Source: Actinomycetota bacterium
GTDB lineage: Bacteria > Actinomycetota > Acidimicrobiia > IMCC26256 > PALSA-610
Assembly: GCA_003134555.1 (NCBI GenBank)
Contig: PLBO01000074.1
Coordinates: 56,320 to 93,939 of the forward strand
Length of the DNA: 37,620 nucleotides
Reading direction: 5' to 3'
Below the pieces are notes generated by a model. That model did not search any database. It worked only from the letters and a program-made list of their open reading frames with translations, and had not been told where the DNA came from. A program made the translations under genes and the position numbers. Of the stretch, positions 1-36,800 are shown piece after piece (within the stretch, counting starts at the first letter, position 1; every line of letters starts with the position of its first letter).

Positions 1-1086
1 GGGAGCCGCATCGCCCTGTGGCACCAGCTCGACCCCGGCGACGATGCCGGCACCCACGCGGTGCACGCCGTCGAGCTCGCCCGCCAGTCGGGCGATCCGA
101 CCGTGCTGGCCGAGGCGCTGCGCACTGCCATCACCGTCGGTGCCTACCGGTTCGACCCCGCCGAGATAGACGCGCGGTCGGCCGAGGCCGTCCAGCTCGC
201 TCGCGAGGTCCGCAACGTGACCTTGATCGCCGCGACGATGACCGACCGCGTTCAAATGCTGGCGACCCTCGGCCGCTTGGCTGAGGCGGCGCGCGCCGGT
301 CTCGAATGTCTCCAGTTCGCCACCGACGTCGGCAGCGGGTTCAAGCTCGAGATCGCCTGGCACCTCAACCAGTTCCAGTTCATGGCCGGTCGCGTCGATG
401 TGTTCCGCGCCCGTTTGGCCGAACTCCTCGCGCAGGAGCGCCAGTCGGCCGGTCACGACGTGACGTTGTTCGGTCAGCAACTCTCGCTCGTCGACGTCAC
501 CGACCCGCCGGCATCCATCGACCTCTGGGTGCAAACAGACGCGGGACACAACCCGTTCGTGTTCGTCTTCCCGTGGCGCGCCGCCAACGCGGCGTGGGAG
601 GGGCGTGGCGACGACGCACGCGTTGAGTTGGCCGCGTGGCGCGAGTATGTGTACCCGTCGATGCCGGGCTTCATCGGTTGGTACGCGTCGACCTGGGCGG
701 CGCGGGTGGCGTGGTGGTCGAAGGATTCCGAGACTGCCGCAGTGCTGTACGACGCGCTGGTCCCGTTCCGGACGCAATGGGCATACGCGGCGGGCGCGGC
801 GATCGGGCCGGTCGAGACCGCCCTCGGCCAATGCGCGTATCTGAGGGGTGATCTCGAGCTCGCGCTTCGCCACTTCGAGGCCGCACTCGAGCAGACCGCG
901 CGGGAAGGCTGGGTCATCCAGCAGATCGAAGCCGAGCTCTACCTCGCCGCCACTCTCGGCGCGCTCGGACGCATCGACGAGGCTCGGGCGCACGACACGG
1001 TCGGACGCGAGCTGGCGACGCGCTGTGGCGCGTCGGCGTACCTCGAGCGGCGCGCGCTCGCGCCCTACTTCGACCCCACGCCCTAG
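1..1086 (+). CDS. TPR-rich C-terminal part of a large regulatory ATPase (5' end outside window)
   Basis: The reading frame is open from base 1, so the true start lies upstream; a GTG at 61 is only an internal candidate. The protein is helical and Ala/Arg/Leu-rich with degenerate TPR-like units: paired helices with small residues at packing positions and repeated phrases such as LAREV, LRHFEAALEQ and LGALGRIDEA. It resembles in style the C-terminal tail of the cyclase-AAA-TPR protein at 33883-37188 in this window, so I infer that the missing N-terminus carries an ATPase and possibly a cyclase or DNA-binding domain. No catalytic motif is visible in this part. It ends at TAG 1084-1086, 125 bp before the next gene on the same strand. 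A LuxR-type (MalT-like) regulator tail is the main alternative. Confidence 0.75.
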   Translation, partial: GSRIALWHQLDPGDDAGTHAVHAVELARQSGDPTVLAEALRTAITVGAYRFDPAEIDARSAEAVQLAREVRNVTLIAATMTDRVQMLATLGRLAEAARAGLECLQFATDVGSGFKLEIAWHLNQFQFMAGRVDVFRARLAELLAQERQSAGHDVTLFGQQLSLVDVTDPPASIDLWVQTDAGHNPFVFVFPWRAANAAWEGRGDDARVELAAWREYVYPSMPGFIGWYASTWAARVAWWSKDSETAAVLYDALVPFRTQWAYAAGAAIGPVETALGQCAYLRGDLELALRHFEAALEQTAREGWVIQQIEAELYLAATLGALGRIDEARAHDTVGRELATRCGASAYLERRALAPYFDPTP

Positions 1087-2831: not shown

Positions 2832-5726
2832 TCAGGGGAGTGGGTATTGCGCGCAGGTCGCGTGCTCGTGTCCGGCCCACGGGAGGTATTTCTGCCATTC
2901 CTGTGTTGTGAGGTTTCGGCCGGCGAGGGCGCATGCGGCGGCTTGGAGGCTCGTGGGAGCGAGGGTCCAGATCTGGCCGTCACCGTTGGTGGCTTGGGTG
3001 TACACGGTGGTGTTGTCCACGCCGAGGAATGCGAGAGATCCGATGGGGCCGGGGGTCCACGGCCCGATCAACTGTTGTGCGTCGAGGTCGACGAGTCGCC
3101 AGCCTTGGCTGCTACCGACGACGGCCGCGTGTCCGTCGGGGGCGCTGTTGACTGCGGTGATGTACGAACTGCCGAGTGGGATGATTTGCGTCACGGGTTG
3201 GAGAGTGTTGCCGTCGAACACCTGTACCGAGGTTTGGTAGGAGACCACGAGCCGTCGGCCGTCAGCGTCTGCCGAAATCCCCGTCGCGCCCGGGAACTCG
3301 ACGGTGAGCTGGGGTGTGCCATCGAGATCGGTGACGCGATAGACGCCGTCTGCGCCGGTGTGGGGTCCGCCGATCCACAAGGTGGTGTCGGAGCTGAAGA
3401 AGATGCTGGCGATGGCGATGTCTTGACTCGGACTTGCGACGACTCGCAGGGTCTTGTGCGCTACGTCGTATAGCGCTACCGAGACTGCACCGGCGGTGCC
3501 CACCAATATCGGGTTGGCGGAGATGGCGATCTGTCGGCCGTCGGGCGACCATGCACACTCGCTCAGTCCGGCGAGGTGGGCGGCGACGCCTGAGGCGGTG
3601 CTCAGGACTCGGAACGGTGGTGTCGCGTCGCGCACGATGATGTCACCGGTGGCGCGCGAGACGGTTGCGATGCGACCGATCTGTGCGTCCGAACATACGA
3701 GGGGCCCGAGGATCGCGACCGCGTGGCGGACGGCTGCGGGCAGCCCTTGCAGATCTTGTTCAATAGGGATGGGTGCACCCAAGGGCCGGTAACCCGGACC
3801 GAGGACGGTGACCGTGCTCTCGTTGCCGAGCGTCGATAACCCGATGGAGCTGTCAGGCACCCCGGTGGCGACCGCGGGCCCGAACCCGAAGTTGTACTGC
3901 GGGAGCGTGCGGGTGATCAGGACTGAGGCGCCGGTGAGGTCCCACGCGCTCACGGGCCCACCCTTGGAGGGCGCGGTCAACACGTTGCGGGTGTCGAGGA
4001 AGAGGAACGGACCGACGAAGGTGTTCGTCGGGAGCGCGGATGCGTGCGCGAGTGGTGTGAGGGTGTTGGCGTCGAAGATCCGGAAGCCGTTCGTGGTGTT
4101 GAGCCCGAGCCGGCTGTCGGTGGTGTCGTAACCGACGACTCCGTAACCGAGACCCGCAATCGGGCCCACATTGATGACGTGCGGCGTCGGATCCGGGGCA
4201 TTCAGGTCGTACCACACGGCATCGCCCGCGCCGTCAGGGGGTGTGCTCACGACGATACGCCGTCGGCTCCAGTCGAGCGCGAGTCCGTTCGCTGAGACCG
4301 CGGCGAAGCCGAACAGCGGCCGGCCGCTTGTGACGTCGCTGACCACGATGTTGCTGCCGCTCGAGGTCGGCGACGCTGTCGCGATCGCGCGGCCGTCACT
4401 GCTAAGAGCCATTGTTTCGACCCGGCCGCGCAGGCCGGTGAGGGGCGGGTCCGGTACCCACCGGTCGCCGAGGTGGGAAAAGACGTTGACTGACCGACCC
4501 GCGGTCGCTGCTGGTGACGTCACGGCGATTGTCTCGTCGTTCGGACTGAGCCAGATGCCGCTCGCAGGTGTGACGAACTTGCCGAGTCCGCTCGGGAACG
4601 CCGGGCCTTGCGGTCGGAGGGTGTGGCCCGAGTAGAGCTGGATCATGCTGTCGGTGGAAATGACTGCGAGGACCAGACCGTCAGCAGTCGTGGCGATGTC
4701 CAACGGTCCGGTGGTGGCGTCGCCGACCGGCGCGTCGCGCCAGACTTGACGCTGGCCGGTCTGCCAGTCCCACACTTGAAGGACGTTTCGATTGAGGGTC
4801 GCGCCCCGGTCCGCGCTCAAGACCGCAACTCGGTGCCCGACGAGCGCGCCCAGATTGCCGGCGGGACCTCCAAACGTTCGTTGTAAACGCGGGTCGGCCA
4901 GCACGGTGTTCAGGAGCGCGTCGCGACTCGCGCCGCTCGGCTGGCGGCGGTCGGCCTCGATCGCCAACAGCGTTGCCAACTGGCGGCTCGAACCGAGCAG
5001 CGCCTGCGACTCGGCCACGAGCAGTTCGTGCTCCGCCGTCGCCGCGTTGGTGTTGGCACGGCTGGCGTTCCTGTTCGCACGGTTCCGTTGTGCGACCGCG
5101 AACGCGCCGAACACAACCGAGATGACGAGGAGCAGAACGACCACGGTGGTGGCGGCGCGGGCGAGTCGGCGCGCCCTTCGGTGTTGGCGGATGTCCTCGC
5201 CCTCGAGTTCGTCCTTGGCGACGCCGTGCATCGGCGCAGCAAGGTCCGCAACCGCGGAACGGAATCGACTGTTACGCAGATCCAGGTCCGTCTCCGAACG
5301 CGCCCACCGCACATCCAAATGACGAGGCTCATCGCGGAGCGCGCCGCGTAACGCGTCCGGCACCGCCGACGAGCCAGCCGTGAAATCCCCGGCTGCGGGA
5401 TCCCACTCCCAAGTCCCATCCGTCAGAACCGGCAGCATGTGGTCGACCGACTTCGTCGCCAGCCAGTGCGCGATTTCCTTGTTCACCCACTCCGAACCCG
5501 CTGCTTCCGGAGAGGCAAACAACACGAACCATGCGGACTCGTCGAGCGCGCCCTCGATCGCCGACCACAAGTGCGGGTTTGTCGACAGGCCGGTCTCGTC
5601 CCGGAAGATCCGCAACGCGCGACGACTATTCCACGGCTTAGCTAACCGCTGCAGACCCCGCTGCAACGCCGGCGCCAGCCGACCATCAGCCGCATGGCTA
5701 TACGAAATGAACCCGTCGTAGACCAT
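2832..5726 (-). CDS. TIR-domain, single-span membrane, WD40-like beta-propeller protein
   Basis: This 964-residue protein starts at ATG 5726 directly with the TIR strand DGFISYSH. TIR domain about 1-150: a loop SPEAAGSEW leads to NKEI, whose Glu84 is in the position of the catalytic glutamate of NAD-cleaving TIR domains. A basic stretch (RRARRLAR) precedes one hydrophobic helix (about 192-212), then a short coiled coil (about 213-245) and the LATLLAIEA motif that usually introduces bacterial WD40 propellers. Residues about 285-940 are repeated beta-blades with GHR, WDW and LSSDGR-like phrases. The end (CALAGRNLTTQEWQKYLP) is the usual closing motif of these proteins. Predicted topology puts TIR in the cytoplasm and the propeller outside. 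TIR-propeller proteins occur in actinobacteria as stand-alone genes; a role in immunity or NAD+ signalling is inference. The gene is alone on its strand between two scar zones. Confidence 0.88.
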   Translation of the reverse strand: MVYDGFISYSHAADGRLAPALQRGLQRLAKPWNSRRALRIFRDETGLSTNPHLWSAIEGALDESAWFVLFASPEAAGSEWVNKEIAHWLATKSVDHMLPVLTDGTWEWDPAAGDFTAGSSAVPDALRGALRDEPRHLDVRWARSETDLDLRNSRFRSAVADLAAPMHGVAKDELEGEDIRQHRRARRLARAATTVVVLLLVISVVFGAFAVAQRNRANRNASRANTNAATAEHELLVAESQALLGSSRQLATLLAIEADRRQPSGASRDALLNTVLADPRLQRTFGGPAGNLGALVGHRVAVLSADRGATLNRNVLQVWDWQTGQRQVWRDAPVGDATTGPLDIATTADGLVLAVISTDSMIQLYSGHTLRPQGPAFPSGLGKFVTPASGIWLSPNDETIAVTSPAATAGRSVNVFSHLGDRWVPDPPLTGLRGRVETMALSSDGRAIATASPTSSGSNIVVSDVTSGRPLFGFAAVSANGLALDWSRRRIVVSTPPDGAGDAVWYDLNAPDPTPHVINVGPIAGLGYGVVGYDTTDSRLGLNTTNGFRIFDANTLTPLAHASALPTNTFVGPFLFLDTRNVLTAPSKGGPVSAWDLTGASVLITRTLPQYNFGFGPAVATGVPDSSIGLSTLGNESTVTVLGPGYRPLGAPIPIEQDLQGLPAAVRHAVAILGPLVCSDAQIGRIATVSRATGDIIVRDATPPFRVLSTASGVAAHLAGLSECAWSPDGRQIAISANPILVGTAGAVSVALYDVAHKTLRVVASPSQDIAIASIFFSSDTTLWIGGPHTGADGVYRVTDLDGTPQLTVEFPGATGISADADGRRLVVSYQTSVQVFDGNTLQPVTQIIPLGSSYITAVNSAPDGHAAVVGSSQGWRLVDLDAQQLIGPWTPGPIGSLAFLGVDNTTVYTQATNGDGQIWTLAPTSLQAAACALAGRNLTTQEWQKYLPWAGHEHATCAQYPLP

Positions 5727-13307: not shown

Positions 13308-13482
13308 GCGGTCACGCTAACGGTGCCAGGTAAAGGGTGAAACGGTTGGGGATGATTCATTTCAGATCTCAGTCACACGGCGGGGGCCCCTGGCGCTGTC
13401 GTGACTGCGCTCCTACAGTCGCGTCGGCGTGGTGAGTTTCGGGTGTGATCTGCGGCTGCCGCGCCATCGACGGGGGGCGTCA
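13308..13482. promoter_or_regulatory. divergent intergenic region
   Basis: This region separates the flavoprotein/AKR operon (minus) from the secreted DUF11 protein (plus) and must hold both promoters. 13330-13365 is relatively AT-rich (GATGATTCATTTCAG). No defined boxes could be assigned. Confidence 0.3.
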
Positions 13483-15063
13483 ATGTACGCATTGCGACGG
13501 GCCAGGCTGGGGCTGGCGCCCCGGCTGCGGCGGTTCCTATCTGCGGCAGTCGTGTTGGGCATGGCGAGCGTGCTCGTCCCGGTGGGCGCGTCGTCCGCGG
13601 GAGCGACCGGTCCGGTGTGCCCGCCGTTGAACGCCGGGACCTGGGTGGGCACGTTCTCGGGGTCGGCGTCGGGCACGTGGTCGGCGAACTACGACTTCAG
13701 CGAGGGCCTCTCGGGAACGGTGAGCGTTCAAGGCTTCTTCAGCGACGCTCCGGCCACCGGCAGTGTGAACTGCGGTCAGATCCTGTTCGGCGACGTCGGA
13801 TCGCTGGTTTCGTTCACCGGCTTGATTGCGCCCGACGGCAACACCATGTCGGGAACATGGCAGGCGGGAGCCTCGAGCGGGACGTACCAGGGTTGGTTCC
13901 AACTCGGCGGGCTCGACATGTCGGGCTACTGCCAGAGCCTCGGGTACAACGGTCAGAGCGAGACGCCACCCGTGATCCTGGCGAAGGGTTCGAGTGTTGG
14001 GACCGGCTTCGCGTTCGACAATTGGGAGTGCGTCGGCAGCGAGAGCACGGCGCTTGTCGCGGCGACCGGCGCCGCGCCCAGCATGAATGATGCGTGCGTA
14101 TCGCAGTATCCCGGTTCCACGCCGTACGCGCATCCGTCGGATCCCAATGACGCGTTCTCGTGGAACTGCTATCCAATTTCGCTCGTCACGTCCCTCTCCG
14201 GCTCGCCGTCCACCGTCACCGCCGGCGCCGACGTTCAGTACGTCGCCACTGTCCAGAACAACGGGCTCGAGCCGGTCGCCGGCGTTCAAGTGGCCGACAC
14301 CCTGCCGTCGGGCACGACCCTCGTATCGGCGAGCGGTCCCGGGGCGTGCACTGGGACGACGACGGTGACCTGTTCGCTCGGCACTCTCGCCCCGTCGGGA
14401 TCGGCGGCCGCGACGCTCGTCGTCAAGACCGCGCCGGTCGTGCCGTCCGGTGGTGTCATCACCGACACTGCGACCGCGACGCCCGGCTCCAACAACGTCG
14501 CGAGCGTCGACACCACAGTCGTTGCCGCCTCGCCCGGCAGTGCGTCGGGGTTCGTGCCGCCCGGCGGTTCGATCGATACCGGCGGCAACAACCCGGCCCA
14601 TCTGACGTTGCCCAACACCGGACCGGGTGCGGCGATCACGATCACGCAACAGCCGACGGGAAACACGTTCTGCAACGGTCCGTGCAACGGAACTGCGACG
14701 TTCATCTCCGACTTCGGCGGATATAGCGACCCGCTCCATCCGATCGACCTCAAGCTCACCTTCGCGGACACTGGGCTGAGCACCGCACTCAAGGACTACG
14801 CGTTCTCGACGATCTACAAAGTCCGCGACAACCAGGTGGTCGGTGTGCCGGTCCCGGACTGCAAGGACAACCCCAACTGGACGCGAGCCCAGAAGCTGTT
14901 CGCGGCGCTCCGGCGTCTTCTGCGGCTCGGCACGCAGAGCGGGATCGCCAACCCGGCACCTTGCGTCGACAGCCGCAGCATCACGAGGGTCTCGAACACG
15001 CTGTACAAGGTGACCTTCGAGATCCTCTATGTCTCGGACGACGGTGGGTTCGCCAGGAGGTAG
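13483..15063 (+). CDS. secreted protein with DUF11 domain
   Basis: The product is 526 residues from ATG 13483, behind GGGGGGC. A basic N-terminus and hydrophobic core (FLSAAVVLGMASVLVPVG) end in SSAGAT, a signal peptide cleaved near residue 40. Residues about 40-130 are Gly/Ser/Thr-rich strands (GTWVGTFSGSASGTW). About 140-225 is a Cys-containing module with GFAFDNWECVG and, later, AFSWNCYP. About 230-320 is a DUF11 Ig-like repeat (VTAGADVQYVATVQNNGLE, VADTLPSGT), common in bacterial cell-surface adhesins. There is no LPXTG or obvious C-terminal anchor; the protein ends in a basic tail. It converges with the double-cyclase gene, with only 25 bp between stops. Confidence 0.85.
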   Translation: MYALRRARLGLAPRLRRFLSAAVVLGMASVLVPVGASSAGATGPVCPPLNAGTWVGTFSGSASGTWSANYDFSEGLSGTVSVQGFFSDAPATGSVNCGQILFGDVGSLVSFTGLIAPDGNTMSGTWQAGASSGTYQGWFQLGGLDMSGYCQSLGYNGQSETPPVILAKGSSVGTGFAFDNWECVGSESTALVAATGAAPSMNDACVSQYPGSTPYAHPSDPNDAFSWNCYPISLVTSLSGSPSTVTAGADVQYVATVQNNGLEPVAGVQVADTLPSGTTLVSASGPGACTGTTTVTCSLGTLAPSGSAAATLVVKTAPVVPSGGVITDTATATPGSNNVASVDTTVVAASPGSASGFVPPGGSIDTGGNNPAHLTLPNTGPGAAITITQQPTGNTFCNGPCNGTATFISDFGGYSDPLHPIDLKLTFADTGLSTALKDYAFSTIYKVRDNQVVGVPVPDCKDNPNWTRAQKLFAALRRLLRLGTQSGIANPAPCVDSRSITRVSNTLYKVTFEILYVSDDGGFARR

Positions 15064-15088: not shown

Positions 15089-18000
15089 CTAACTACTCGG
15101 CCGAACGAACGAAACGTCCGGCACCGCGTCGACGCCGAGTCGGGCGAGGATCGCGACCGCTTCGTCGTTGACATCGGGTTGCGGGTCTGAGCCGGCGAGC
15201 GCGTCGAGACGGCTCAACGCGACGAGGGTGAGCGCGATCTCGTAGCTCTGAGCTTGCTCGCGACCGAGCGTGAGGCTTTCGTGGAGCGCGACGCGCGCGT
15301 CGACGAGCTCTCCTATCTGCGCCCGCGCGTAGCCCGAGCAGCGATAGAGCGGTGGGCCGAGCAAGCCGATCTCGCCTCCCGAACGTGCCCCGGCGATCGT
15401 CCCCTCGAGCACCTGCAAAGCTGCGGTCGGATCGCCGGCCAACACCATGGCCTCGGCGATGAACGTCTCGACCTGGCGGACCTCGAACCCGCCCTCGATG
15501 GCGACGAAGCCCGCGCGTGCGTCCTCGAGCAGGGCCATGGCCTCGTCCGTCCGGCCCGTTCGTGCCGCGACCCGGCCGAGGAACGCGGTCGTGAGCGCCA
15601 GCCCGCCCCGGTATCCCGCCGCCCGATATACGCGGCGCGCGTCTTCCAGGAGGTCTTCAGCATCTTGGTAGTGGCCGCGCTCGAGGAGGATCTCGGCACA
15701 GTTCGCGCTCGCGAGCGCGGCTCCGACCACGTCGCCGGTCCGCAGCCGGGCATCACGGGCGCGCTCGAGGAGTGCGAGTGCGTCGTCCCAGCGTCCGCCG
15801 TAGTACGCGAGCTGGCCGAGGTTGTTGGCGACCGCAGCCTGGCCCCCGAGGTTGCCGAGCTGCTCGTAGAGCGCGAGCGCCTCGACCGAGTTGGTGGCGA
15901 GGTCGAGCCGACCCAGTCCGATGTACGCCCAATCGAGAAGGAACTCCGCATGAGCGAGCGCGTCGAGATCTCGCGCGGAACGAGCGAGCTCGATCGCCGT
16001 CTCGCACCACGTAATGGCCTCGTGATGGCGGCCTTGTGCCTGGCGCACCGCCCCGTACCACGCGGCGAGCTGCGCGCGCGGTCCCGCGGTGGCGTCCGCA
16101 TCGTCGAGCTCATCGAGCCGTCGCAGCCCACGCCGTAGCCACCGAATCGCTTGCGAGTAACGCCCGAGACGTTCCGCGATCCACGCCTCCTTCAAACATA
16201 ACTGCGCGTCGTACACGGGCTCGTCGGCACGCATCCGGCGCGCGGTGCGGTAGGCGTCGCGCGCCAAGTCGTAGACGCCGATGTTGTCGCGCACGTCGCC
16301 CAACGCCTCCGCGACGACCGCCATATCCACCGCATCGACGTCGGGGAGGCGGCGGGCCGACGCCAGCGCGCGTTCGAGGAGCTCGGCAGCCTCGACGTTG
16401 GCGTACTCGGCGCGAGCCCGATCGGCCGCGATGCGCGCGTACCGCCACGCGTCTGCGTGCCGATCACCGTGGAAGAAGTGGAGGGACAGCAGCGCGGCAT
16501 TCTCTTCGAGTCGCTGGGCCGATGCTTCCAGGACCTCGGCGACTCGCTGATGCAGTGCGCGACGGGTGCCGTAGGCGAGCCCCTCGTACGCGACATCGCG
16601 GAGCAACGCATACCGGAAGCGGAGCCGGCCGGGACCATCAGCGACGAGCAGACCGTCGAGCGTCGCGGCCGGCGACTCACCGTCCGAGTTGATAACCGCC
16701 GCGAGCAAGGGCGCGTCGAACGCGTGGCCCAGCACGGCCGCATGACGCAGGCGGCGGCGCGTCTCTGCTGGAAGCCGGTCGATCTGGGCCGACACGAGCG
16801 AGTCGATCGAGTCGGGCAGGCCGCTCACCCCGCCCGCGGCGGTGGCCTCCCGAGCAAGCTCCGTGAGAAATCGCGGGTTGCCACCCGCACGCGCGATCAG
16901 CAGCGCGACCTCGTGGGGGCGAAGGGGTTGAGCCTCGGTCGCGCGTCGCACGAGCTCGGTCGCATCGGTGTCAGCCAGCGGCTCGAGCGTGAGCACACGC
17001 GATTGGGGGCCCGAGGCGTGGAAACCCTCTTCGTCGTCATTCCGAGTGAGACACACGAGCCAGGGGCCGCTTGCGATTCCCGTTTGGACGTGACGCAAGA
17101 TGTCCGCCGACGCTTCGTCCATCCAGTGCGCGTCCTCGATCACGATGAGGGTCGGAGCGCGCAGCATCGCGGCAACGAATGCCGCACTGGTCTCCTCGAC
17201 TCGCCGCTTGCGGAACCGGGGCTCGAGCGCGACCGTCTCGAGTGTGTCGGGAACGTCGAGCTGCAACGGTGTCGCGAGCAGCGGCAGCCAGTCCAGCAGT
17301 TCGGGCGCGTCGCGCGTCACCAGATCTCGCAGCCGCTGTTCGACGGTCGTGGTCGGCGAGTTGTCGGGGATCCGCATGATCTGCTGCAAAATTTCACGGA
17401 ACGCCCAGTACGGGTTCGCAGACTCATAGGGCACGCACGCGACGCGCACGAACTCCAAATCGGACTCCTCGCGTCGCATCTCGTGCACCAATCGCGACTT
17501 GCCGATCCCGGATTCGCCACAAAGCTCGACGACCGAGCCCGAACCGGACCGCGCGGCCGCGACCGCCCCGCGCAGCAGCTCGAGCTCGTCGTGCCGTCCG
17601 ACGAGAGCCAGGGACACGTCCTCGCCTCCGGGAACCGGTCGAAGTCCGCCGACGGCGTACGCCTGTACCGGCCGAGCCTTGCCTTTGACCATGAACGGTG
17701 GGAGCGGTTCGGTCGCGAAGGGGCTGCGCGCCGGTTCGAGCACGCCGGCGGTCGCGAGGATCTGTGCGGGCGCGGCGGCGGCCATGAGCCGCGCGGCGAG
17801 ATTCACGGTGTCGCCCATCACGGTGTACGTACGGCGAAAGAGTGGACCGATCTCGCCGGCGAACACGTGTCCGCGGTTCACGCCGATGCGCACGGGCAGC
17901 GTGCGATCGTGTTCGACGATTCGGCGCAGGGTCCGCAGCATGCGCTCTTCGTCCTGGCCGGCCGCCCGCGGTACACCCGCCGCAAGGATGATCTTCCCGC

Positions 18001-18907
18001 CGTCGCGATCGATGTCAGTGCCCAAGAAGGTGACGTCGTGCTCCTCCGCCGCGGCCTGCGCGGCGACGATCAGCTCGTCGAGCGCATCTGCCAGCGCCGC
18101 CGGACCGGCGCGTTCGGCGAGCTCGTCCACGCCGTCGAAGTGCACGAACGCGACCGTCGCGACGCGGTGCTCCGGATCGTCACCGCCCGCGAGCAGATGA
18201 TCCCGCAGGCGCGTGGGTAAACCGACCGCCAAACGCGCGCTCGTCGGCTCGATCCGCTGCGGGTCCTCGTCCCGCGAGCCAACCGGCGCGTACCGCAGGA
18301 GCACACCGGGCCCCTTGGCGGCACCCAGCGCCGCGGCGCGAATCAGCGCGGCAGTGGCCGGGCTGACGACGATCTCGCCCGCGTCCGCGGTTGCCTCCAT
18401 CGTCACGGTCTCGGTGACTGCCGGACCGGTGATCACGAGCTCTCGATGCGATCCCCCGACGAGAAAGGTGAGGAACCGGCCACTGTGCACACCGACCGAC
18501 ATGCGCAAGCGCACACCGCGGCCTGAGGTCTCGATGCGACCAACCGCGCGGAGCCGGGCGCGCATCCCCGTTGCCGCTCGACATCCCCGTCCCGCATGGT
18601 CTTCACCGGTAAAGAAGATGAGGAGCGCGTCGCCGCCAAATTTGAGAAGTACGCCGCCCTCGTCGTAAGCGACCGCGAGTAGCTCGGCGAAGCAGGAGCC
18701 GATCACATCGCTGAGCTCCTCGGCACCGACGCGGCCGTGCCGGGCGAGCCGTTCGGACAGGCGTGTGAAACCCGATATGTCGACGAACACCGCCGTCGCG
18801 TCGACGGCGCGCCAGCGGCGCTCGGGCTCGTGGGCGAGCCACTCCTGGACAAGGCGAGGGAGGAACGGGGCCAGAACCTCGAACTCCCTCTCCGCGCGCG
18901 CCGACAT
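15089..18907 (-). CDS. soluble-adenylyl-cyclase-like protein: two cyclase domains, AAA ATPase, TPR
   Basis: The product is 1272 residues from ATG 18907. C1 (about 30-200) has metal-binding Asp43 (VFVDISGF) and Asp93 with Lys89 (LLKFGGDALL), but the helix that should supply transition-state Asn and Arg reads GPAVTETVTME. C2 (about 245-420) has lost the clear metal motif (FVHFDGV) but keeps Lys305 (GGKIIL), Asp366, Asn369 and Arg373 (MGDTVNLAARL). Together they make one complete active site, the arrangement of mammalian soluble adenylyl cyclase. The ATPase follows: LVGRHDEL, Walker A GESGIGKS (464-471), Walker B LIVIEDAHW (about 587-595). From about 800 to the end is TPR-like helical repeats. 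Likely a cytosolic cAMP-forming sensor; family precedent allows bicarbonate or ligand control, which is inference. Confidence 0.9.
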   Translation of the reverse strand: MSARAEREFEVLAPFLPRLVQEWLAHEPERRWRAVDATAVFVDISGFTRLSERLARHGRVGAEELSDVIGSCFAELLAVAYDEGGVLLKFGGDALLIFFTGEDHAGRGCRAATGMRARLRAVGRIETSGRGVRLRMSVGVHSGRFLTFLVGGSHRELVITGPAVTETVTMEATADAGEIVVSPATAALIRAAALGAAKGPGVLLRYAPVGSRDEDPQRIEPTSARLAVGLPTRLRDHLLAGGDDPEHRVATVAFVHFDGVDELAERAGPAALADALDELIVAAQAAAEEHDVTFLGTDIDRDGGKIILAAGVPRAAGQDEERMLRTLRRIVEHDRTLPVRIGVNRGHVFAGEIGPLFRRTYTVMGDTVNLAARLMAAAAPAQILATAGVLEPARSPFATEPLPPFMVKGKARPVQAYAVGGLRPVPGGEDVSLALVGRHDELELLRGAVAAARSGSGSVVELCGESGIGKSRLVHEMRREESDLEFVRVACVPYESANPYWAFREILQQIMRIPDNSPTTTVEQRLRDLVTRDAPELLDWLPLLATPLQLDVPDTLETVALEPRFRKRRVEETSAAFVAAMLRAPTLIVIEDAHWMDEASADILRHVQTGIASGPWLVCLTRNDDEEGFHASGPQSRVLTLEPLADTDATELVRRATEAQPLRPHEVALLIARAGGNPRFLTELAREATAAGGVSGLPDSIDSLVSAQIDRLPAETRRRLRHAAVLGHAFDAPLLAAVINSDGESPAATLDGLLVADGPGRLRFRYALLRDVAYEGLAYGTRRALHQRVAEVLEASAQRLEENAALLSLHFFHGDRHADAWRYARIAADRARAEYANVEAAELLERALASARRLPDVDAVDMAVVAEALGDVRDNIGVYDLARDAYRTARRMRADEPVYDAQLCLKEAWIAERLGRYSQAIRWLRRGLRRLDELDDADATAGPRAQLAAWYGAVRQAQGRHHEAITWCETAIELARSARDLDALAHAEFLLDWAYIGLGRLDLATNSVEALALYEQLGNLGGQAAVANNLGQLAYYGGRWDDALALLERARDARLRTGDVVGAALASANCAEILLERGHYQDAEDLLEDARRVYRAAGYRGGLALTTAFLGRVAARTGRTDEAMALLEDARAGFVAIEGGFEVRQVETFIAEAMVLAGDPTAALQVLEGTIAGARSGGEIGLLGPPLYRCSGYARAQIGELVDARVALHESLTLGREQAQSYEIALTLVALSRLDALAGSDPQPDVNDEAVAILARLGVDAVPDVSFVRPSS

Positions 18908-20239: not shown

Positions 20240-22663
20240 CTAGACGAAGTCCTCGCGGCGGAGATGCTTGAACGCGAACCAGCCGGGAAGGATCGGGAGC
20301 CAGTAGGTGGCGAGCCGGAACAGAAACACTGCGGATACTGCCGCGGTGCTGTGCATGCCGGCGCTGACGAGTCCAGCGATCACCGCCGCCTCGAGCGCGC
20401 CGAGCCCGCCGGGTGTGGGCGCGACAGTGGCGATGGCGGAACCGACGAGGTACGCGGCACCGACCTGAGCCAGGTCGAGGCCGCCTCCAAAGGCGACGGT
20501 CGAGAAATAGACGGCCAAGACGTAGCTCAACGTGAGCACCGCGGAGCCACCGAGCAGCAGCGCGATCTTGCCTGGACTCCGCATCACCGCGGCCAGGCCA
20601 CTCAACGCACTCCGGAGCACCGGTACGAGCTTCGTGGCGAGCAGCTTGCGGGTGGCCGGGATCGCGATTGCCGTCGCGAGGCACAACGCGATTACGGCGA
20701 CGCCGATGGCGACGACCGACCAACTCGGAAGGGAAATTGAGCCGAGACCAGACTCTCCGGCCCACGCGAAGAAGACGAACAGGAGCACGATGTGCACGGC
20801 GAAGCCGGCCACCGAGTTGAGCCCCACGCTCGACGCGGCCACCGGGGCATCCACGCCCGACTTCTGCAAGTACCGCGCGTTGAGTGCCATACCGCCGACG
20901 CCCGCGGGCGCGAGGTTGCTCGCGAACGAGGCTGCAACTTGCGCCAGCAAGGTCGGGACGGCGCGCAGGCGCGCAGGCACCGCGCCGCCGATGCCGAGCG
21001 CGGCGCCGACGTAGGTCAAGGCCGAGAACAGCACCACGAGCGGAACCCAGTTCCAGTCGGCAGCCCCAATCTCGCGCAAGACGCCCGGCAGGTCGGCGAG
21101 TTGGGGCAGGAGGAAGTAGGTGACCGCTACGAGCATCGCCGCGGTGAAGACGCGTTGCTTGCTGATGCGCTCGAGAGGGACATAGCTCGGCTCGCCGACC
21201 GCGCACTGTTGCGCGACGGTGTCCTGTAGCTCCTCGAGGAGACCCGGGCGCTCCTCGAGTTCGGCCCGGGTCGAGTCGCTGAGCGCGTTGGGCTGCAACC
21301 GTGCGAGCGCGGCTCCGACTGTGTGCGGCCCGAGTGTCGCGACCGCACTGGTCACGGAACGGTCCGCCCCGACCGTGACGGACAGGGCGGCGAGGAGCTG
21401 CGCGACGTCACCGTCGATCTGGTCGTCACTCGCGGCGACCTCGCTGAACGCGAAGCCGGTGAGCCACGGCTCGCCGTTGTCGTCGGCGAGAACGTTTGCG
21501 CGCCGCAGGTCGCGATGAGCGATGCGGTGCTCTCGCAGACACGCGACCTGCGCCCATAGGTCGCGCAGGAGCCGATCCGAGACTTCGTGGCCGTGCATAT
21601 GGTCCAGGCGGCGGCCCTCGATCATCTCGTAGGCGATGAGCATCGAGTCCTCGCCGGCTTGGGCGATGGCGCGCATGCGGGGTGTCGCCACGCCGATATC
21701 TCGCGCCTGGAGGGCGACGAAGGCCTCGTGCTCGACCGATCGGCGCAGCGACAAGAACGGCCGCTCGTCGCCGACATTCTTCAAGCGCAGGTAGCGGTAG
21801 GTGCGATACAGCAGATCGATCGAACGTTCGTCGGGACTGAGTACCTTGACCAAGAATCGGGTGCCGTCGGCGCCGGTCGCGAGGTACCACCGTGCACCAC
21901 GCACGCCCATGGCGTACGGCTCGAGCGCGATGCGAGGCAACGCGCTCGACGCGAGCGCCGCTTCCACCGCGGCGACGGTCGGCCGCCGATCGGGGCGACC
22001 GAAGGCGAGGAGCACCGCGACTCCGACTGTCGCGCCGATGGCGACGACGAGGAATATCTCCGCGGGCAGACCGGACACGAGGACGATGCGGCCGAGCACG
22101 AAAGTTGCAAGGATCACGATGCCGGCCTGCCGCCACCGCCGGCCGACGAACGGGGCCAGGATGACGAACGACGACGTGAGTTGGGCGAGCGTCCAGAGGT
22201 TGAGTGAGCCGTTGGCAGTCGCGCCGAACCGGTCGACGACCGTTGCCAGCAGCGATGAGGGGGCCGCCTGGTTCAACCACCACGTCGCCGCGCCCACGAG
22301 CAGCGCGGTCGCGAGGTTGGCCACGACGACATAACCGATCAGTCGATAGCGCTTCAGGAGGAGAGGCGGGACGTATGCCGCCAGACCCAGGATGCCCGCG
22401 GTGACCGAGAGTGTTTGGCTGAGAGCCCGCTCGACCGACGGGTTCAGGCCGCCGAACAGCGCGACGACGTCACTCTCGAACGCGCGGACGGTGCCCTCTG
22501 CCCACCTCGTGAGCGCGAGCAGTCCGACGGTCGCGAGGCTGAAGAGGATCAGCCGCAACACGTCGCTCGGCGAGCGCCGGTAGCCGATGATGTCGTCGAA
22601 ACCGAAGACCTCGAGTGCAGTGGTCTGCGGCGTACCGCGGACGGCTGCGGACGGGCCCATCAT
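20240..22663 (-). CDS. membrane protein: kinase-like domain fused to LPG-synthase-like region
   Basis: The product is 807 residues if ATG 22663 is used; an in-frame GTG at 22735 would add 24 basic residues and neither has an ideal ribosome site. Order: N-terminal membrane part (about 35-225), cytosolic kinase-like domain (about 250-490), LPG-synthase-like membrane domain (about 515-807). The kinase-like part has a strand-3 Lys (FLVKVL, Lys273) and the catalytic loop HRDLRRAN (383-390). The expected DFG is GFA (LTGFAF, 403-405), so the Mg-binding Asp is missing. The membrane domain ends with GSAIATVAPTPGGLGALEA, the conserved proline/glycine motif of the family. Probably a regulated lipid flippase or transferase whose kinase-like part is a sensor or pseudokinase. 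Confidence 0.85.
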   Translation of the reverse strand: MMGPSAAVRGTPQTTALEVFGFDDIIGYRRSPSDVLRLILFSLATVGLLALTRWAEGTVRAFESDVVALFGGLNPSVERALSQTLSVTAGILGLAAYVPPLLLKRYRLIGYVVVANLATALLVGAATWWLNQAAPSSLLATVVDRFGATANGSLNLWTLAQLTSSFVILAPFVGRRWRQAGIVILATFVLGRIVLVSGLPAEIFLVVAIGATVGVAVLLAFGRPDRRPTVAAVEAALASSALPRIALEPYAMGVRGARWYLATGADGTRFLVKVLSPDERSIDLLYRTYRYLRLKNVGDERPFLSLRRSVEHEAFVALQARDIGVATPRMRAIAQAGEDSMLIAYEMIEGRRLDHMHGHEVSDRLLRDLWAQVACLREHRIAHRDLRRANVLADDNGEPWLTGFAFSEVAASDDQIDGDVAQLLAALSVTVGADRSVTSAVATLGPHTVGAALARLQPNALSDSTRAELEERPGLLEELQDTVAQQCAVGEPSYVPLERISKQRVFTAAMLVAVTYFLLPQLADLPGVLREIGAADWNWVPLVVLFSALTYVGAALGIGGAVPARLRAVPTLLAQVAASFASNLAPAGVGGMALNARYLQKSGVDAPVAASSVGLNSVAGFAVHIVLLFVFFAWAGESGLGSISLPSWSVVAIGVAVIALCLATAIAIPATRKLLATKLVPVLRSALSGLAAVMRSPGKIALLLGGSAVLTLSYVLAVYFSTVAFGGGLDLAQVGAAYLVGSAIATVAPTPGGLGALEAAVIAGLVSAGMHSTAAVSAVFLFRLATYWLPILPGWFAFKHLRREDFV

Positions 22664-22851
22664 CCTGTTGGCCGTAGGTCGTCGGGAACAGGATCGTCGG
22701 ACTCGATGCCACGACCGTAACCGCGTTGAGGACACCTTGTACCACGTCCCTGAGCGGCGCGTAGGCTGGGAGCGCGGCGGTCGGAGAGGGGATCCGAATG
22801 CGTGTACCTGCGCAACACCGCGGGCTGTTCTCGCGGGCGCCGGCGTAGCTG

Positions 22852-30317: not shown

Positions 30318-31268
30318 TCAGTCGGCGAGGTCGTGCAGGAACTCGACGAGGCCGGCGAAATACCGCTCTTGGTCGTCATACATTGCTAGGTGACTGCCGT
30401 TAGGGCAGTGAAGGTAGCGGCCCTTGGGTAGTTGCCCGGCCATCATCTCCAGGTGCGAAGGGTCCATCGAGTCGTAGCGGGCGCCGATCACGAGGGTCGG
30501 CACCTCGATCGAGGCCAGCCGGTCGGTGCATTCCCAGTCCGCGAGTTTGGCCTCCTTGCTGATCCCGAGTTCGCTGGGGCCTTGCATCGACACGTAGATC
30601 GAAGGGTTGATGTGGGCGAAGGCGCGTTGCACCGGATCCGGCCAGTCCTCGACCGGCATGCGCAGGATGTGGTGGACATAGTGCTGTTCGTTCAGGAGCT
30701 CCATGTAGCGCGGGTTCTCGGTAGTGCCACTCTCCTCGAGTGACAGGATCTCCGCGAGCGCGGCCTGGTCCATCTCGGGCATCAATACCTGCTCGGCGTA
30801 CGCGCTGTAGGCCGGAGCGCTGGACATCATGTTCGAGACGACAAGTCCGCGCAGGTGCTCCTGGTAGCGAAGCGCGTACTCCATGGCGAGAATTCCGCCC
30901 CACGACTGTCCGAAGAGCACGAAGTTGTCGAGGTCGAGACCGAGCGCTTGACGGACCTGTTCAACCTCGTCGACGAAGCGGTCGAGCTCCCACAGCGATG
31001 GCTCATCGGGCTGATCGCTGCGGCCCGAGCCGAGCTGGTCGTAGTAGTAGTACTCGATGCCCGCAGCCGGAAGATAGCTGTCGCACGCCTCGAGATACTC
31101 GTGTGTACAACCGGGGCCGCCGTGGAGCAGCAGCAACTTGAGATCGGGGTTGTTGCCGATCCGCTTCGTCCATACCCGAAAGGCGCCGGCCGGTGTACTC
31201 ACGGGGATCATGCGAGCGCCACCACTCAGCGCGTCGTCCCGTCCTGAAGAGTCGAGATAGTCACTCAT
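30318..31268 (-). CDS. proline-iminopeptidase-like alpha/beta hydrolase (S33)
   Basis: The product is 316 residues from ATG 31268, with GGGA upstream; the open frame extends further but the start fits family length. It has the oxyanion motif LLLHGGPGCTHEYL (HGGPG at 49-53), YYDQLGSGRSD, and the nucleophile elbow LFGQSWGGILA with Ser122. The later VIGARYDSMDP carries the acid, and CPNGSHLAMYDD the catalytic His. This matches proline iminopeptidase and related tricorn-interacting F1-type peptidases. Cytosolic and without a signal peptide. It is divergent from the hydrolase-cyclase fusion at 31670. It may release N-terminal proline from peptides or act on another small amide or ester. Confidence 0.9.
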   Translation of the reverse strand: MSDYLDSSGRDDALSGGARMIPVSTPAGAFRVWTKRIGNNPDLKLLLLHGGPGCTHEYLEACDSYLPAAGIEYYYYDQLGSGRSDQPDEPSLWELDRFVDEVEQVRQALGLDLDNFVLFGQSWGGILAMEYALRYQEHLRGLVVSNMMSSAPAYSAYAEQVLMPEMDQAALAEILSLEESGTTENPRYMELLNEQHYVHHILRMPVEDWPDPVQRAFAHINPSIYVSMQGPSELGISKEAKLADWECTDRLASIEVPTLVIGARYDSMDPSHLEMMAGQLPKGRYLHCPNGSHLAMYDDQERYFAGLVEFLHDLAD

Positions 31269-31669
31269 TCCCGCGTCCCTTGTCATCGCTTCCGCCAACC
31301 GTAAGCCGCGCGAGGCTCGGGATGCACCGTGCTCGCCGACCGGGACCAACTATCCCCGAACACGCGTCCCCGAAAACCGGCCATCCACTGCCACTGACCC
31401 GGCGAACTAAGACACCGTGGACGCAATATTCGGGGGCGCACGTTTGGGGACGGAACCGGAGGAGGGGTGAGGTGAGGCACGGTCGTCGCGGGTGTCGGTC
31501 GTCTCGTTTCGTTCCGCCGCTCCTTCGGGACCGCGACGCTTTTGCTGACGGATATCGAGTGCTCGTCCCAGTTGTGCGAGCCGGTGCAGGTTTGCGATGC
31601 CGGCCCACGCTTGAGCGGCCGAGATACGGCAGGCGCGGGCCGAGGAGCAAGGGTTACGGTTGGGGTTCG
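31269..31669. promoter_or_regulatory. divergent intergenic region, 400 bp
   Basis: This separates the peptidase-like gene (minus) and the hydrolase-cyclase fusion (plus). The frame of the fusion is open through much of it, but translation is Arg/Pro-rich and does not align with the paralog. Around 31365-31380 (CGTCCCCGAA) and 31430-31460 (TTCGGGGGCG, TTTGGGGACG) there are imperfectly complementary G-run/C-run segments that could form a structure or bind a regulator. Confidence 0.35.
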
Positions 31670-32992
31670 ATGCCTGAGACGCAGTACGCGCAGAGTGGCG
31701 AGTTGAGCATCGCCTACCAGTGTGTGGGCGATGGTCCGCTCGACTTGTTGTTCATCCCGGGGTTCGTGTCGAACGTCGAGTTGATGTGGGACATCCCGAA
31801 GTGGGCTGACCTCTTCACCCGGTTCTCGGAGCTTGGCCGGTTCGTATTCTTCGACAAGCGGGGAACTGGTTGTTCGGATCGCACGCTCGGTACCGGAAGC
31901 GCCGAGGACCGGATGGACGACGCCCGAGCGGTCGCCGACGCCGCCGGTATCGAGCAGGCGGTGGTGATTGGCCTGTCCGAAGGCGGTCCGCTCGCCGTCT
32001 TGTTCGCGGCCGCTTTTCCCGAGCGAGTCCGCTCTTTGGTCTTGTGGGGAACCTTCGCGCGTATCTTGCAAGGCCCCGACTACGAAGCCGGAGCGGATCC
32101 GGAGTTTGTCGAAGCGTTCATCACGGGCGTTCGCGACCAGTGGGGTACGGGTCATGCGCTCGAAGCCTTCGTGAGCGGCGTGGATAACGACATGTTGCCG
32201 GTTCTCGGGCGTTTTGAACGCCAGACCGCGTCACCCGGAGCAGCGGCAGAGATCCTGCGCCACAACGTGAATATGGACGTCCGCTACGCGCTTGGTGCCC
32301 TGCGCGTACCGACGCTCGTTGTGCACCGCACCGACGATCCGATCGTCCCAGTCGTTCACGGGCGATACCTCGCTGAGCACATCGCGGAGGCTCAACTCGT
32401 CGAGATCCCGGGCCACTTCCATGTCGGAGGCCTCCCCGGTGACGACGACCCGATCATCGACGCGATCGCCGAGTTCGTCACCGGCGCGCCGACCCACCGC
32501 GAAGTCGAAATCGACCGAGTGCTCACGACTGTGCTCTTCACCGACATCGTGGAATCCACCGCCCGCGCCGCCTCGATCGGTGACCGAGCCTGGCGCACGC
32601 TGCTCGAACAACACGACACTGCCGCGGGAAAAGCAGTCGAGCAGCACCGGGGCGTCGTGGTGAAACGCACCGGCGACGGCTTGCTCGCCACCTTCGACGG
32701 ACCGGGCCGCGGCGTCCGCGCCGCACGCGCATTACAGACCGCAGTCCGACCACTCGGTATCGAAGTACGCGCCGGTCTGCACACCGGTGAGGTCGAACGG
32801 CGAGCCGACGACGTCGCCGGAATCGGCGTGCACATCGGCGCGCGCGTCAGCGCGCTCGCAGGACCGGGAGAAGTGCTCGTCACGAGCACCGTCAAGGACC
32901 TTGTGATCGGCTCGGAACTCCAGTTCGACGACCGAGGCGCCCAGACCCTGAAGGGCGTCCCGGGCGACTGGCACCTCTGGGCTGCGAACTGA
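31670..32992 (+). CDS. alpha/beta-hydrolase / class III nucleotide cyclase fusion, triad intact
   Basis: The product is 440 residues from ATG 31670. Hydrolase-fold part about 1-275: YQCVGDGPLDLLF, FFDKRGTGCSD, nucleophile elbow GLSEGG with Ser103, Asp222/223 in VHRTDDP, and His249/His251 in PGHFH, so a complete triad is possible. Cyclase part about 283-440: Asp292 (FTDIVEST), Asp336 with Lys332 (VKRTGDGLL), His388 and Arg392 (VHIGARV), ending with LKGVPGDW. Compared with its paralog at 1212-2552 this copy keeps the adenine-selecting Lys and the Ser nucleophile. Likely a homodimeric adenylyl cyclase whose hydrolase domain senses or cleaves a ligand. Gene order with the downstream gene suggests separate transcription. 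Confidence 0.92.
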   Translation: MPETQYAQSGELSIAYQCVGDGPLDLLFIPGFVSNVELMWDIPKWADLFTRFSELGRFVFFDKRGTGCSDRTLGTGSAEDRMDDARAVADAAGIEQAVVIGLSEGGPLAVLFAAAFPERVRSLVLWGTFARILQGPDYEAGADPEFVEAFITGVRDQWGTGHALEAFVSGVDNDMLPVLGRFERQTASPGAAAEILRHNVNMDVRYALGALRVPTLVVHRTDDPIVPVVHGRYLAEHIAEAQLVEIPGHFHVGGLPGDDDPIIDAIAEFVTGAPTHREVEIDRVLTTVLFTDIVESTARAASIGDRAWRTLLEQHDTAAGKAVEQHRGVVVKRTGDGLLATFDGPGRGVRAARALQTAVRPLGIEVRAGLHTGEVERRADDVAGIGVHIGARVSALAGPGEVLVTSTVKDLVIGSELQFDDRGAQTLKGVPGDWHLWAAN

Positions 32993-33482: not shown

Positions 33483-33882
33483 AACGGTCGGGGCGGCTCC
33501 CGATGTCGGCGGGTCGCCTCAAAGGGTTGGCACTAACGCCACGAGGCTCGTGTGCCCGCCAGGAACTGCCGTTCGGCGCTCGTCATGCCCGCGCCGCCGC
33601 ACAATCGGCGCACATGACTGCGCCCCGGTGCCGGCAGCCTGGGAACTACAGGGAGAGGCGCTGCGAGCAGCTCGCGGCGACGATGGTCCGCGGGGGCTCC
33701 CACACCGCGCTCGGCCCTCGAGTTCGAGCGGGCCAACCTGGCGGTACGCGATCGCCGCACTCTCGCTGCCCTAGCGCATGCTCAGCGAGTCGTGGAGCGT
33801 CTCGCCGACGAGCCGGACGCCACGCTCCACCGCGACGCCGCCGACCTCCGAACTACGCTCCGACCGTGGGGCGCGGGGTTCT
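33483..33882. other. gene-poor stretch before the cyclase-AAA-TPR gene
   Basis: Only Arg/Ala/Pro-rich overlapping frames occur, with no family resemblance. The cyclase frame is open back to 33778, but its extra 35 codons are Ser/Thr/Arg-rich and lie outside the normal cyclase start. The promoter of the next gene should lie here. Confidence 0.4.
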
Positions 33883-36800
33883 GTGACATCTTCAGGTCTG
33901 ATCACGATCTTGTTCACGGATCTCGTCGGTTCGACCGAATTGGCGTCCGACATCGGCGACGCCGCGGCCGACGAGCTGCGGCGCGCGCACTTCGCATCGT
34001 TGCGCGAAGCACTCGCGGCGACGGGTGGTACCGAGGTGAAGACGATGGGCGACGCGCTCATGGTGTCGTACCCGGGCGCGGCCGACGCGCTGGCGGGCGC
34101 GGTCGCGATGCAGCGCGCGGTCGAGCGTCACAACCGGCGCCTCGAAGGACGACGACTGGAGATGCGCGTCGGGATCAGCGTCGGCGACGCGACGTTGGAG
34201 GATGACGACTGGTTCGGCACGCCCGTCGTGGAAGCGTCGCGGTTGTGTGCGGCGGCCACCGGCGACCAGATTCTCGTGAGCGACCTCGTCCGGGCGCTCG
34301 CCGGATCGCGCACCGAATTCGACGTCATTTCCTTGGGCAGTCGTGAGCTCAAGGGCCTGCCCGCACCGCTCATGGTGTGCGAGGTCGAGTGGCGTGCGCC
34401 GGTCGATTCGACCGCGGTACCGCTTCCCGCGTTCGTCGACACATCGCCCGCCTTCCCGTTCGCGGGACGCAACGAGGTGTACCAGACGGTGCTTGCCGCG
34501 TGGAAGGAGACTGTCGAGGGCGCACGCCGCGCGGTGCTCGTGTCGGGCGAGCCCGGTATCGGCAAGACGCGCTTGGTGTGCGAACTTGTGCGACACGCGC
34601 ACGAGTTGGGAACCACCGTGTTGTGGGGCCGCTGCGACGAGGAGCTCAGCGTTCCGTTCGAGCCGTTCGCCGAAGCGTTGCGGCACTACGTCGCGTGCGT
34701 CCCCGCCGATCGCGTCAAGTCAGAGCTCGGTTCGCTCGGCGGCGAGCTCACGCGCATGCTTCCCGACCTCGCGGCGCGCGTCCCCGGGCTCGCGGCGCCG
34801 GTGCAGACCGACCCCGAGACCGAGCGCCACCGGCTCTTTGAGGCTGTGTGCGACTTCCTCGCGGCGATGTCGAACACCGACGCGGTGATCCTCGTGCTCG
34901 ACGACATCCACTGGGCCGACAAGCCGTCCCTGCTCATGTTGCGACACATCCTCCGTTCGGGCTCACCGATGCGGCTGTTCGTCCTCGCGACCTATCGCGA
35001 CACCGATCTCGACCGGTCGCATCCGCTCGCCGACGTGCTCGCGGACCTCCGACGCCAGGCCGGCGTCGACCGGGTCGACCTAGGTGGTCTCGGCCCGGCA
35101 GAGGTCGCGTCGTTCATGGAGGCGGCCGCGGGCCACGATCTCGACGAGCCCGGTGTTGCGCTCGCGCAGGCCGTCTTCGCGGAGACGCAGGGCAACCCGT
35201 TCTTCGTAGGCGAGGTGCTGCGCCACCTCGCGGAGTCGGGCGCGATCGTGCAGCGCGACGGCCGCTGGACGAGCGACATGACGCTCGAAGAGGTCGGCAT
35301 CCCCGAAGGCATCCGCGAGGTCCTCGGCCGCCGGCTCTCGCGTCTCTCGGAAGCCGCGAACCGCGCGCTCGCCGTCGGCGCGGTGATCGGCGCCACGTTC
35401 GACCTCTCGACGATCGAAGCGGCGGGTGGCCCGACGGGCGACGAGCTATTCGACGCGCTTGACGAGGCCGCAGTCGCCTCGATCGTGCGCGAGGTGCCCG
35501 GCACCATCGGCCGCTATGCGTTCGCGCACGCCCTCGTGCGTTCCGCGCTGTACGAGGAGCTCACGACGAACCGCCGCGTGCGCATGCACTGGCGGATCGG
35601 CGAAGCGCTGGAGGTTCGCTACGAGCGACATATCGACGCGCACCTCGACGAGCTCGCGTACCAATTCGTCGAAGGCGCGCTCGCCGGTGATCCCGCCAAG
35701 GCCGTCGATTACTGCCGCCGCGCCGGCGAGCACGCCGAGAGCGAGCTGGCGTTCGAGGCCGCCGCGTACCACTTCGAACGCGCGCTCGGCACGCTCGAGC
35801 TCGTCGACGACGACGATCCGCTGCTTCGCTGCGACCTCCAGCTCGCGTTCGCCACGGCGTTGAATAACGGAGGCGACGAGCGCCGCTGGGACGCGATGTA
35901 CGCGGCGGCGGCGAGCGCCCGCGCGATGGGCGACGCTGAACGGCTCGCCCGCGCGGCGCTAATCCTCTCCACCGTGCCATCGGGCACGAGCGTCGACACG
36001 AAACTCGTGAGCGTGCTCGAAGAAGCCCTCCGAGCCATCGGCAACGAAGCGACGGGGCTGCGCGCTCGGCTGATGATCGGGCTCGCGATGCAGTTGCAAT
36101 GGGGCCCCGAAGTGGAGCGACGCATGGTTCTCGCGCGCGACGCGCTCACGCTCGCGCGCGAAACCCGCGACCCCGAAGCCCTCGCCTTGGTACTCGCGCG
36201 CGGCTGGGTGCTCATCGACGGTTCCACGCCCTTCCTTGCCGAGCTGCAAGCCCTGACCGACGAAGGCGAATCAGTCGCTCGCGACATGGGTAACCCGGCC
36301 CGGCTCGCCGACGCACTGCACGATGGCGCGTACTACGCCGCATGTCGGGGCGACCGGGCGACTTTCGAAGCGAAGCTCGACGCGGCGGCGCGGATCTACG
36401 GCACGCTGCGCCGCCCCCTCTCCGACTGGGTGGTCAATAATGATGCGACCAACCGCGCCGAGCACCTTGGCGAGCTGGAGCAGGCCGAGCACTTCGCGGC
36501 GCAGACAGTCGACTTAGGCCGCCGTGCGGATGTCCCCGAGAACGGCCTCTTCGTCGTGGTCGGCGGCCAGCTGTACCAGATCCGCCGCGCGCAGGGCCGG
36601 CTCGACGAGATGGTGCCTACCCTCGCCGCCCTGTCCGAGTCGACGCCCGACATCCCGTTGTTGCGCCTCGTGTACACCGGGGCCCTGGTCGAGACCGATC
36701 GACTCGACGAGGCACGCCCGCACTTCGCATGGCTCACCGACAACAACTGCGCGAACGTTCCGCCCGACCTTGAGTACGCCGTCACGCTGTGCGCGCTCGG

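Follow-up and report, generated by a model that had tools for sequence, protein, structure and literature searches.

A bacterial cyclase with the single-chain layout of soluble adenylyl cyclase, lacking its bicarbonate switch residue and joined to a predicted STAND-TPR module

The cyclase gene, its relatives, and its surroundings

The DNA analyzed here (the window, the whole stretch of 37,620 nucleotides) carries on its minus strand a single gene for a 1272-aa protein that combines two class III cyclase domains with a large C-terminal NTPase and tetratricopeptide repeat (TPR) region. The domain structure of soluble adenylyl cyclase (sAC) is, according to a paper from 2004, reportedly conserved in bacteria and eukaryotes. 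The features of the gene, in window coordinates, are as follows.

15089..18907, minus strand: whole gene, C1-C2-STAND NTPase-TPR, 1272 aa, a single open frame with an ATG start
18263..18880, minus strand: C1 cyclase domain, residues 10-215, from PF00211, the sAC alignment, the AlphaFold2 model, and conservation
17645..18178, minus strand: C2 cyclase domain, residues 244-421, from PF00211, sAC alignments, and the AlphaFold2 model
17993..18016, minus strand: β2-β3 hairpin of C2, DIDRDGGK, residues 298-305, from conservation and the modeled strands
16508..17614, minus strand: STAND-type NTPase, residues 432-800, from AAA_16, motifs, and model matches
15128..16360, minus strand: TPR region and presumed sensor, approximately residues 850-1260, from TPR_12 (four stretches, E = 2.9e-25) and a weak TPR_MalT match

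Pfam placed two PF00211 domains first, followed by AAA_16 and then TPR_12 (E = 2.4e-24, 1.8e-21, and 2.9e-25, respectively), in agreement with the first-pass annotation, which had read AAA and then TPR parts behind C1-C2 in the order of sAC. In animal sACs, the C1-C2 pair is likewise N-terminal, with the NTPase and TPR parts behind (PMC10668965). The cyclase homology domain scored 86.4 bits against a curated cutoff of 21.9 and was found in two stretches. Among all solved structures, the top sequence match was human sAC, to which both cyclase halves matched (E = 2.5e-17).

Full-length relatives of approximately 1250-1400 aa are collinear with the protein end to end at 37-64% identity, and related genomes, a scan of public genomes, and the phylum all yielded relatives that match it in length and layout. 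The public-genome scan yielded 80 loci, mostly from Acidimicrobiia and other Actinomycetota, with some Chloroflexota, Burkholderiales, and one Planctomycetota metagenome-assembled genome (MAG) as minor hosts. A second copy with 40% identity is present in the window's own genome (C115, locus L031). In genome G006, a relative (L036/L110) is split over several reading frames, through decay of the copy or through errors in sequencing. No plasmid relative covered 80% of the window protein, and a promoter scan at the gene returned nothing.

The flanks of the 80 loci held no conserved operon or partner gene. Recurrent flanking clusters consisted of the gene's own shadow frames, near-copies in a few close relatives, or families present in at most 11 of the 80 loci. 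As to a role in defense, the sole matches were weak ones to the PycC cyclase of Pycsar, such as any class III domain may give, and the flanks contained no recurrent neighbor. The window's own genome (G000, 4.6 Mb) is rich in cyclases, with 30 matches to class III cyclase domains and 14 to cyclic nucleotide monophosphate (cNMP)-binding domains.

Several other genes of the window were recorded. A convergent DUF11 gene (13429-15063, plus strand) adjoins the cyclase, and frames similar to it occur in the regions of four relatives (L038, L039, L051, and L075). Two plus-strand genes (1113-2552 and 31193-32992) each encode a fusion of an alpha/beta hydrolase with a class III cyclase domain at the C-terminus. 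The product of 2832-5726 (minus strand) has an N-terminal TIR-like domain and a C-terminal WD40-type propeller, with a weak match to a SAVED-TIR defense model, while that of 20240-22735 (minus strand) has a lysylphosphatidylglycerol synthase-type membrane part behind a weak protein-kinase match.

Pairing of C1 and C2 and the catalytic residues

Residues 10-426 were modeled with AlphaFold2 from a 75-row alignment, giving a pLDDT of 94.1 and a pTM of 0.93. When the C1-C2 model was searched with Foldseek, ranks 1-24 were all human sAC. VIA-align 2 superposed positions 1..416 of the model on residues 14..468 of sAC with a Z score of 42.1 and 2.3 Å over 395 residues; the same program gave a Z score of 37 for membrane adenylyl cyclase 9. 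Because the superposition on sAC runs along the whole length, C1 and C2 are placed as they are in sAC, head to tail in one chain, and the model thus shows the two domains folded against each other. A single-chain design of the sAC type had been proposed in the first-pass annotation, which left the head-to-tail packing of C1 and C2 to structure prediction and named unpaired domains as the contrary outcome; in the model, the domains are paired.

Catalytic positions were compared with those of human sAC using residue roles from PMC12867704 (Table 1) and PMC12250328, and conservation was counted over 76 sequences. Both metal aspartates lie in C1, where D43 and D93 correspond to D47 and D99 of sAC and are each kept in 76/76, and K89 aligns with sAC K95. 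The transition-state pair lies in C2, with N369 at the place of N412 (75/76) and R373 at that of R416 (76/76). Each half lacks what the other supplies: C1 has T165 and T169 where the Asn/Arg pair would be, and C2 has H256 and G304 at the metal positions. The retention of D43, D93, K89, N369, and R373 and the reciprocal losses had been recognized beforehand from the sequence, and conservation across the 76 sequences rules out that the metal/Asn/Arg pattern arose by chance. Since the residues are split between the two halves, the mirror-image site cannot work, and alignment and model together show one predicted site, with the metal aspartates from C1 and Asn369/Arg373 from C2.

Other contacts of sAC are changed. 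T362 occupies the place of T405 on the adenine side (Thr in 66 and Ser in 9 of the 76 sequences), the residue that contacts adenine in sAC (PMC12250328). The pyrophosphate lysine K144 is replaced by S137. At the place of the base lysine K334, the protein has G296, and its relatives have A, G, E, S, Y, or R, with Lys in 0/76; K340 of the FDKG loop falls on D302 in C2. The position of K334 was mapped via bacterial sAC-like relatives that keep NKV..GDKG, such as L128, in which FNKVDFGDKGG aligns gaplessly with INKVFMFDKGC of sAC. In the wider alignment bridged by these relatives, K305 aligns with sAC S343; because L128 and other GDKG relatives bridge the alignment without a gap, K305 is ruled out as a shifted K334 at the level of sequence. 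D366, in turn, aligns with sAC Q409, the T405 place being T362. Therefore, of the four C2 residues singled out earlier, N369 and R373 were correctly assigned, whereas K305 is not the base lysine and D366 is not the base-contacting residue. The description of the two halves as making one complete site must be amended in the same way: there is a single site common to two unequal halves, but K305 and D366 do not play the parts given to them, and neither K334 nor K144 has an equivalent. Without these lysines, to judge from the alignment, the protein could be a poor catalyst or could act on another substrate.

Overall, the protein resembles mammalian sAC (ADCY10) in being a C1-C2 single-chain pseudoheterodimer of the same fold over its whole length (Z 42), in drawing its metal ligands from C1 and the Asn/Arg pair and Thr405 equivalent from C2, and in carrying the NTPase and TPR parts behind. 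It differs in its identity of approximately 21%, in the loss of R176 (V168), K334 (G296), K144 (S137), and the FDKG lysine (D302), and in a new D298/K305 pair.

Substrate base, bicarbonate, and pH

The retention of T362 makes cAMP the likeliest product, and we regard cAMP as probable, while the missing base lysine leaves the substrate base uncertain. The combination G296/T362 fits neither textbook base pattern. In guanylyl cyclases, Glu stands in place of the base lysine, and the second place can be occupied by Ser, among other residues (PMC4215837). A relaxed or altered base specificity (GTP or another NTP), in which recognition at the K334 place has been replaced by a pocket including the D298/K305 hairpin, is possible but doubtful. 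It would account for the absence of Lys at 296 from all 76 sequences alongside a fixed D298/K305 pair, and some members combine E296 with S362, which is the guanylyl cyclase pattern (PMC4215837); this pairing departs from chance in 89 rows with kinship ignored (Fisher p 0.003). The window protein itself, however, is G296/T362 rather than E/S, and T362 corresponds to the adenine-contacting T405 of sAC (PMC12250328). Seven relatives (L096, L098-L101, L140, and L147) carry E296 and S362 together with Trp at position 90 and are possible guanylyl cyclases.

The D298/K305 pair is nearly invariant in the clade (D298 in 75/76 and K305 in 74/76). In the model, strands 293-300 and 303-310 form a hairpin that places the two residues on facing strands. 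They are kept or lost together: in 89 rows, counted with kinship ignored, both were present in 80, Asp without Lys/Arg in 4, neither in 5, and Lys/Arg alone in 0. The plainest guess is that they form a structural salt bridge. A calcium-binding reading of the DxDxDG motif at 298-303 was discarded, as D300 (49/76) and D302 (57/76) are too variable.

The history of this hairpin was followed on a quick, midpoint-rooted tree in which several outgroup branches are long. A branch with an SH-aLRT of 97 sets apart the rows in which K296 and K302 are each absent. L150, close to L116, still has a lysine at 302, so the two lysine losses need not have been a single event. It is possible, though less likely than not, that this bacterial sAC-like branch gave up both base recognition at the K334 place and the R176 switch and fixed D298/K305 as the lining of a different base or effector pocket, with the STAND-TPR part setting activity and with a product that may not be cAMP in every member. 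Bacterial sAC-like tandem cyclases that retain the NK..GDKG hairpin, L128 for example, share the tandem C1-C2 and a long chain of similar size but lie on the other side of the branch (97% SH-aLRT, in the same midpoint-rooted quick tree). L128 itself comes from a Chloroflexota MAG (G062, also the genome of L115), keeps NK..GDKG, and matches human sAC at an E value of 1e-25, closer than the window protein does; we consider it the better bacterial model of sAC.

Bicarbonate sensing is the textbook property of sAC and is often assumed to extend to its bacterial relatives. In the human enzyme, D99 is kept off by R176 as long as no bicarbonate is bound (PMC12250328). Of the bicarbonate-binding pair, the equivalent of K95 is present (K89) and that of R176 is absent: its place is taken by V168, relatives have V, T, A, L, C, or M there (Arg in 0/76), and residues 161-175 contain no Arg or Lys that might stand near V168 in its stead. 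Sea urchin sAC, in which R176 is replaced by Asn and K95 is kept, is controlled by pH and unresponsive to bicarbonate, and animal sACs with a neutralized R176 are more generally reported to be pH controlled without a bicarbonate response (PMC12867704). With the sAC switch absent, bicarbonate is probably not the signal, and the earlier suggestion of bicarbonate control by family precedent is not upheld, given V168 at the R176 place, the absence of a basic residue at 161-175, and the behavior of R176-neutral animal enzymes. Some bicarbonate effect via another site may exist, given the retained K89. The clade thus has the layout of sAC without its switch residue, in line with recent results on animal enzymes that this layout can occur apart from control by bicarbonate.

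An active cyclase under intracellular pH control, as in the R176-neutral sea urchin sACs and with the STAND/TPR part as a second input, appears unlikely. The protein does share with echinoderm sAC a lysine/neutral genotype at the two bicarbonate residues, but the analogy is with a very distant enzyme, and no pH-sensing residue was identified. Even less probable is a true counterpart of mammalian sAC, that is, an ATP-specific cyclase switched directly by bicarbonate. The same single-chain layout and domain order, along with K89 in the place of K95, would suit such an enzyme; against it stand V168 for R176, the lack of Arg or Lys at 161-175, the absence of Arg from the switch place in all 76 sequences, the reported pH control and bicarbonate unresponsiveness of R176-neutral animal sACs (PMC12867704), and the missing base lysine. 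We consider it just as improbable that the cyclase part is catalytically dead and has no role beyond nucleotide binding or assembly, as the missing contacts at the K334 and K144 places might suggest, since such a domain would be expected to lose the metal aspartates and Asn/Arg that are kept almost without exception in relatives down to approximately 35% identity. With the bicarbonate arginine and the ATP-recognition lysine both missing, the control and exact chemistry of human sAC are not to be assumed for this protein.

The STAND NTPase, the TPR region, and the proposed gating

The NTPase part has an intact Walker A motif (GESGIGKS, residues 464-471) and Walker B motif (LIVIED, residues 587-592). 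Modeled with 58 sequences, it reached a pLDDT of 93.7, and the model matched MalT (Z 25.2), the STAND-TPR protein 6mfv (Z 22.3), and Apaf-1 (Z 22.2). As modeled, this part is a STAND NOD fold. The protein shares with MalT and 6mfv, as STAND NTPases with TPR-type sensors, the NOD fold, the Walker A and B motifs, and a C-terminal TPR region, but its output is a tandem cyclase rather than a DNA-binding domain, and the NTPase parts are only 13-16% identical. Two papers on STAND proteins describe a closed ADP form that passes to an open ATP form on inducer binding and then assembles (PMC6468293, PMC4381067), and full-length animal sAC shows autoinhibition (PMC3838963).

The STAND fold with its intact Walker motifs, taken with STAND precedent, makes control by a TPR ligand or partner acting through the STAND switch the likeliest arrangement. 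Overall, we favor, as the probable reading, a cytosolic, signal-gated nucleotidyl cyclase with a single C1-C2 site, governed by a STAND-TPR switch and without bicarbonate control of the sAC type, whose product is probably cAMP. The STAND switch and TPR sensor, built like those of MalT and Apaf-1, would most likely keep the predicted cyclase off at rest. Binding of a ligand or partner to the TPRs would then lead to exchange of ADP for ATP and assembly of the protein, upon which cyclase output would rise; CRP-like cNMP-binding proteins encoded in the same genome could then read the cAMP produced. An sAC-type cyclase is here joined to a STAND switch of the MalT/Apaf-1 type whose fold could be confidently assigned, which offers a testable model for how the C-terminal part of full-length sAC, itself poorly understood, could act.

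Single-domain cyclase-AAA proteins resemble the window protein in having a class III domain followed by AAA_16 but differ in that they contain one cyclase domain and must dimerize to make a site. One of these is encoded in the window itself by a second large cyclase gene (33778-37188, plus strand; 1136 aa), with its single class III domain and then AAA_16.
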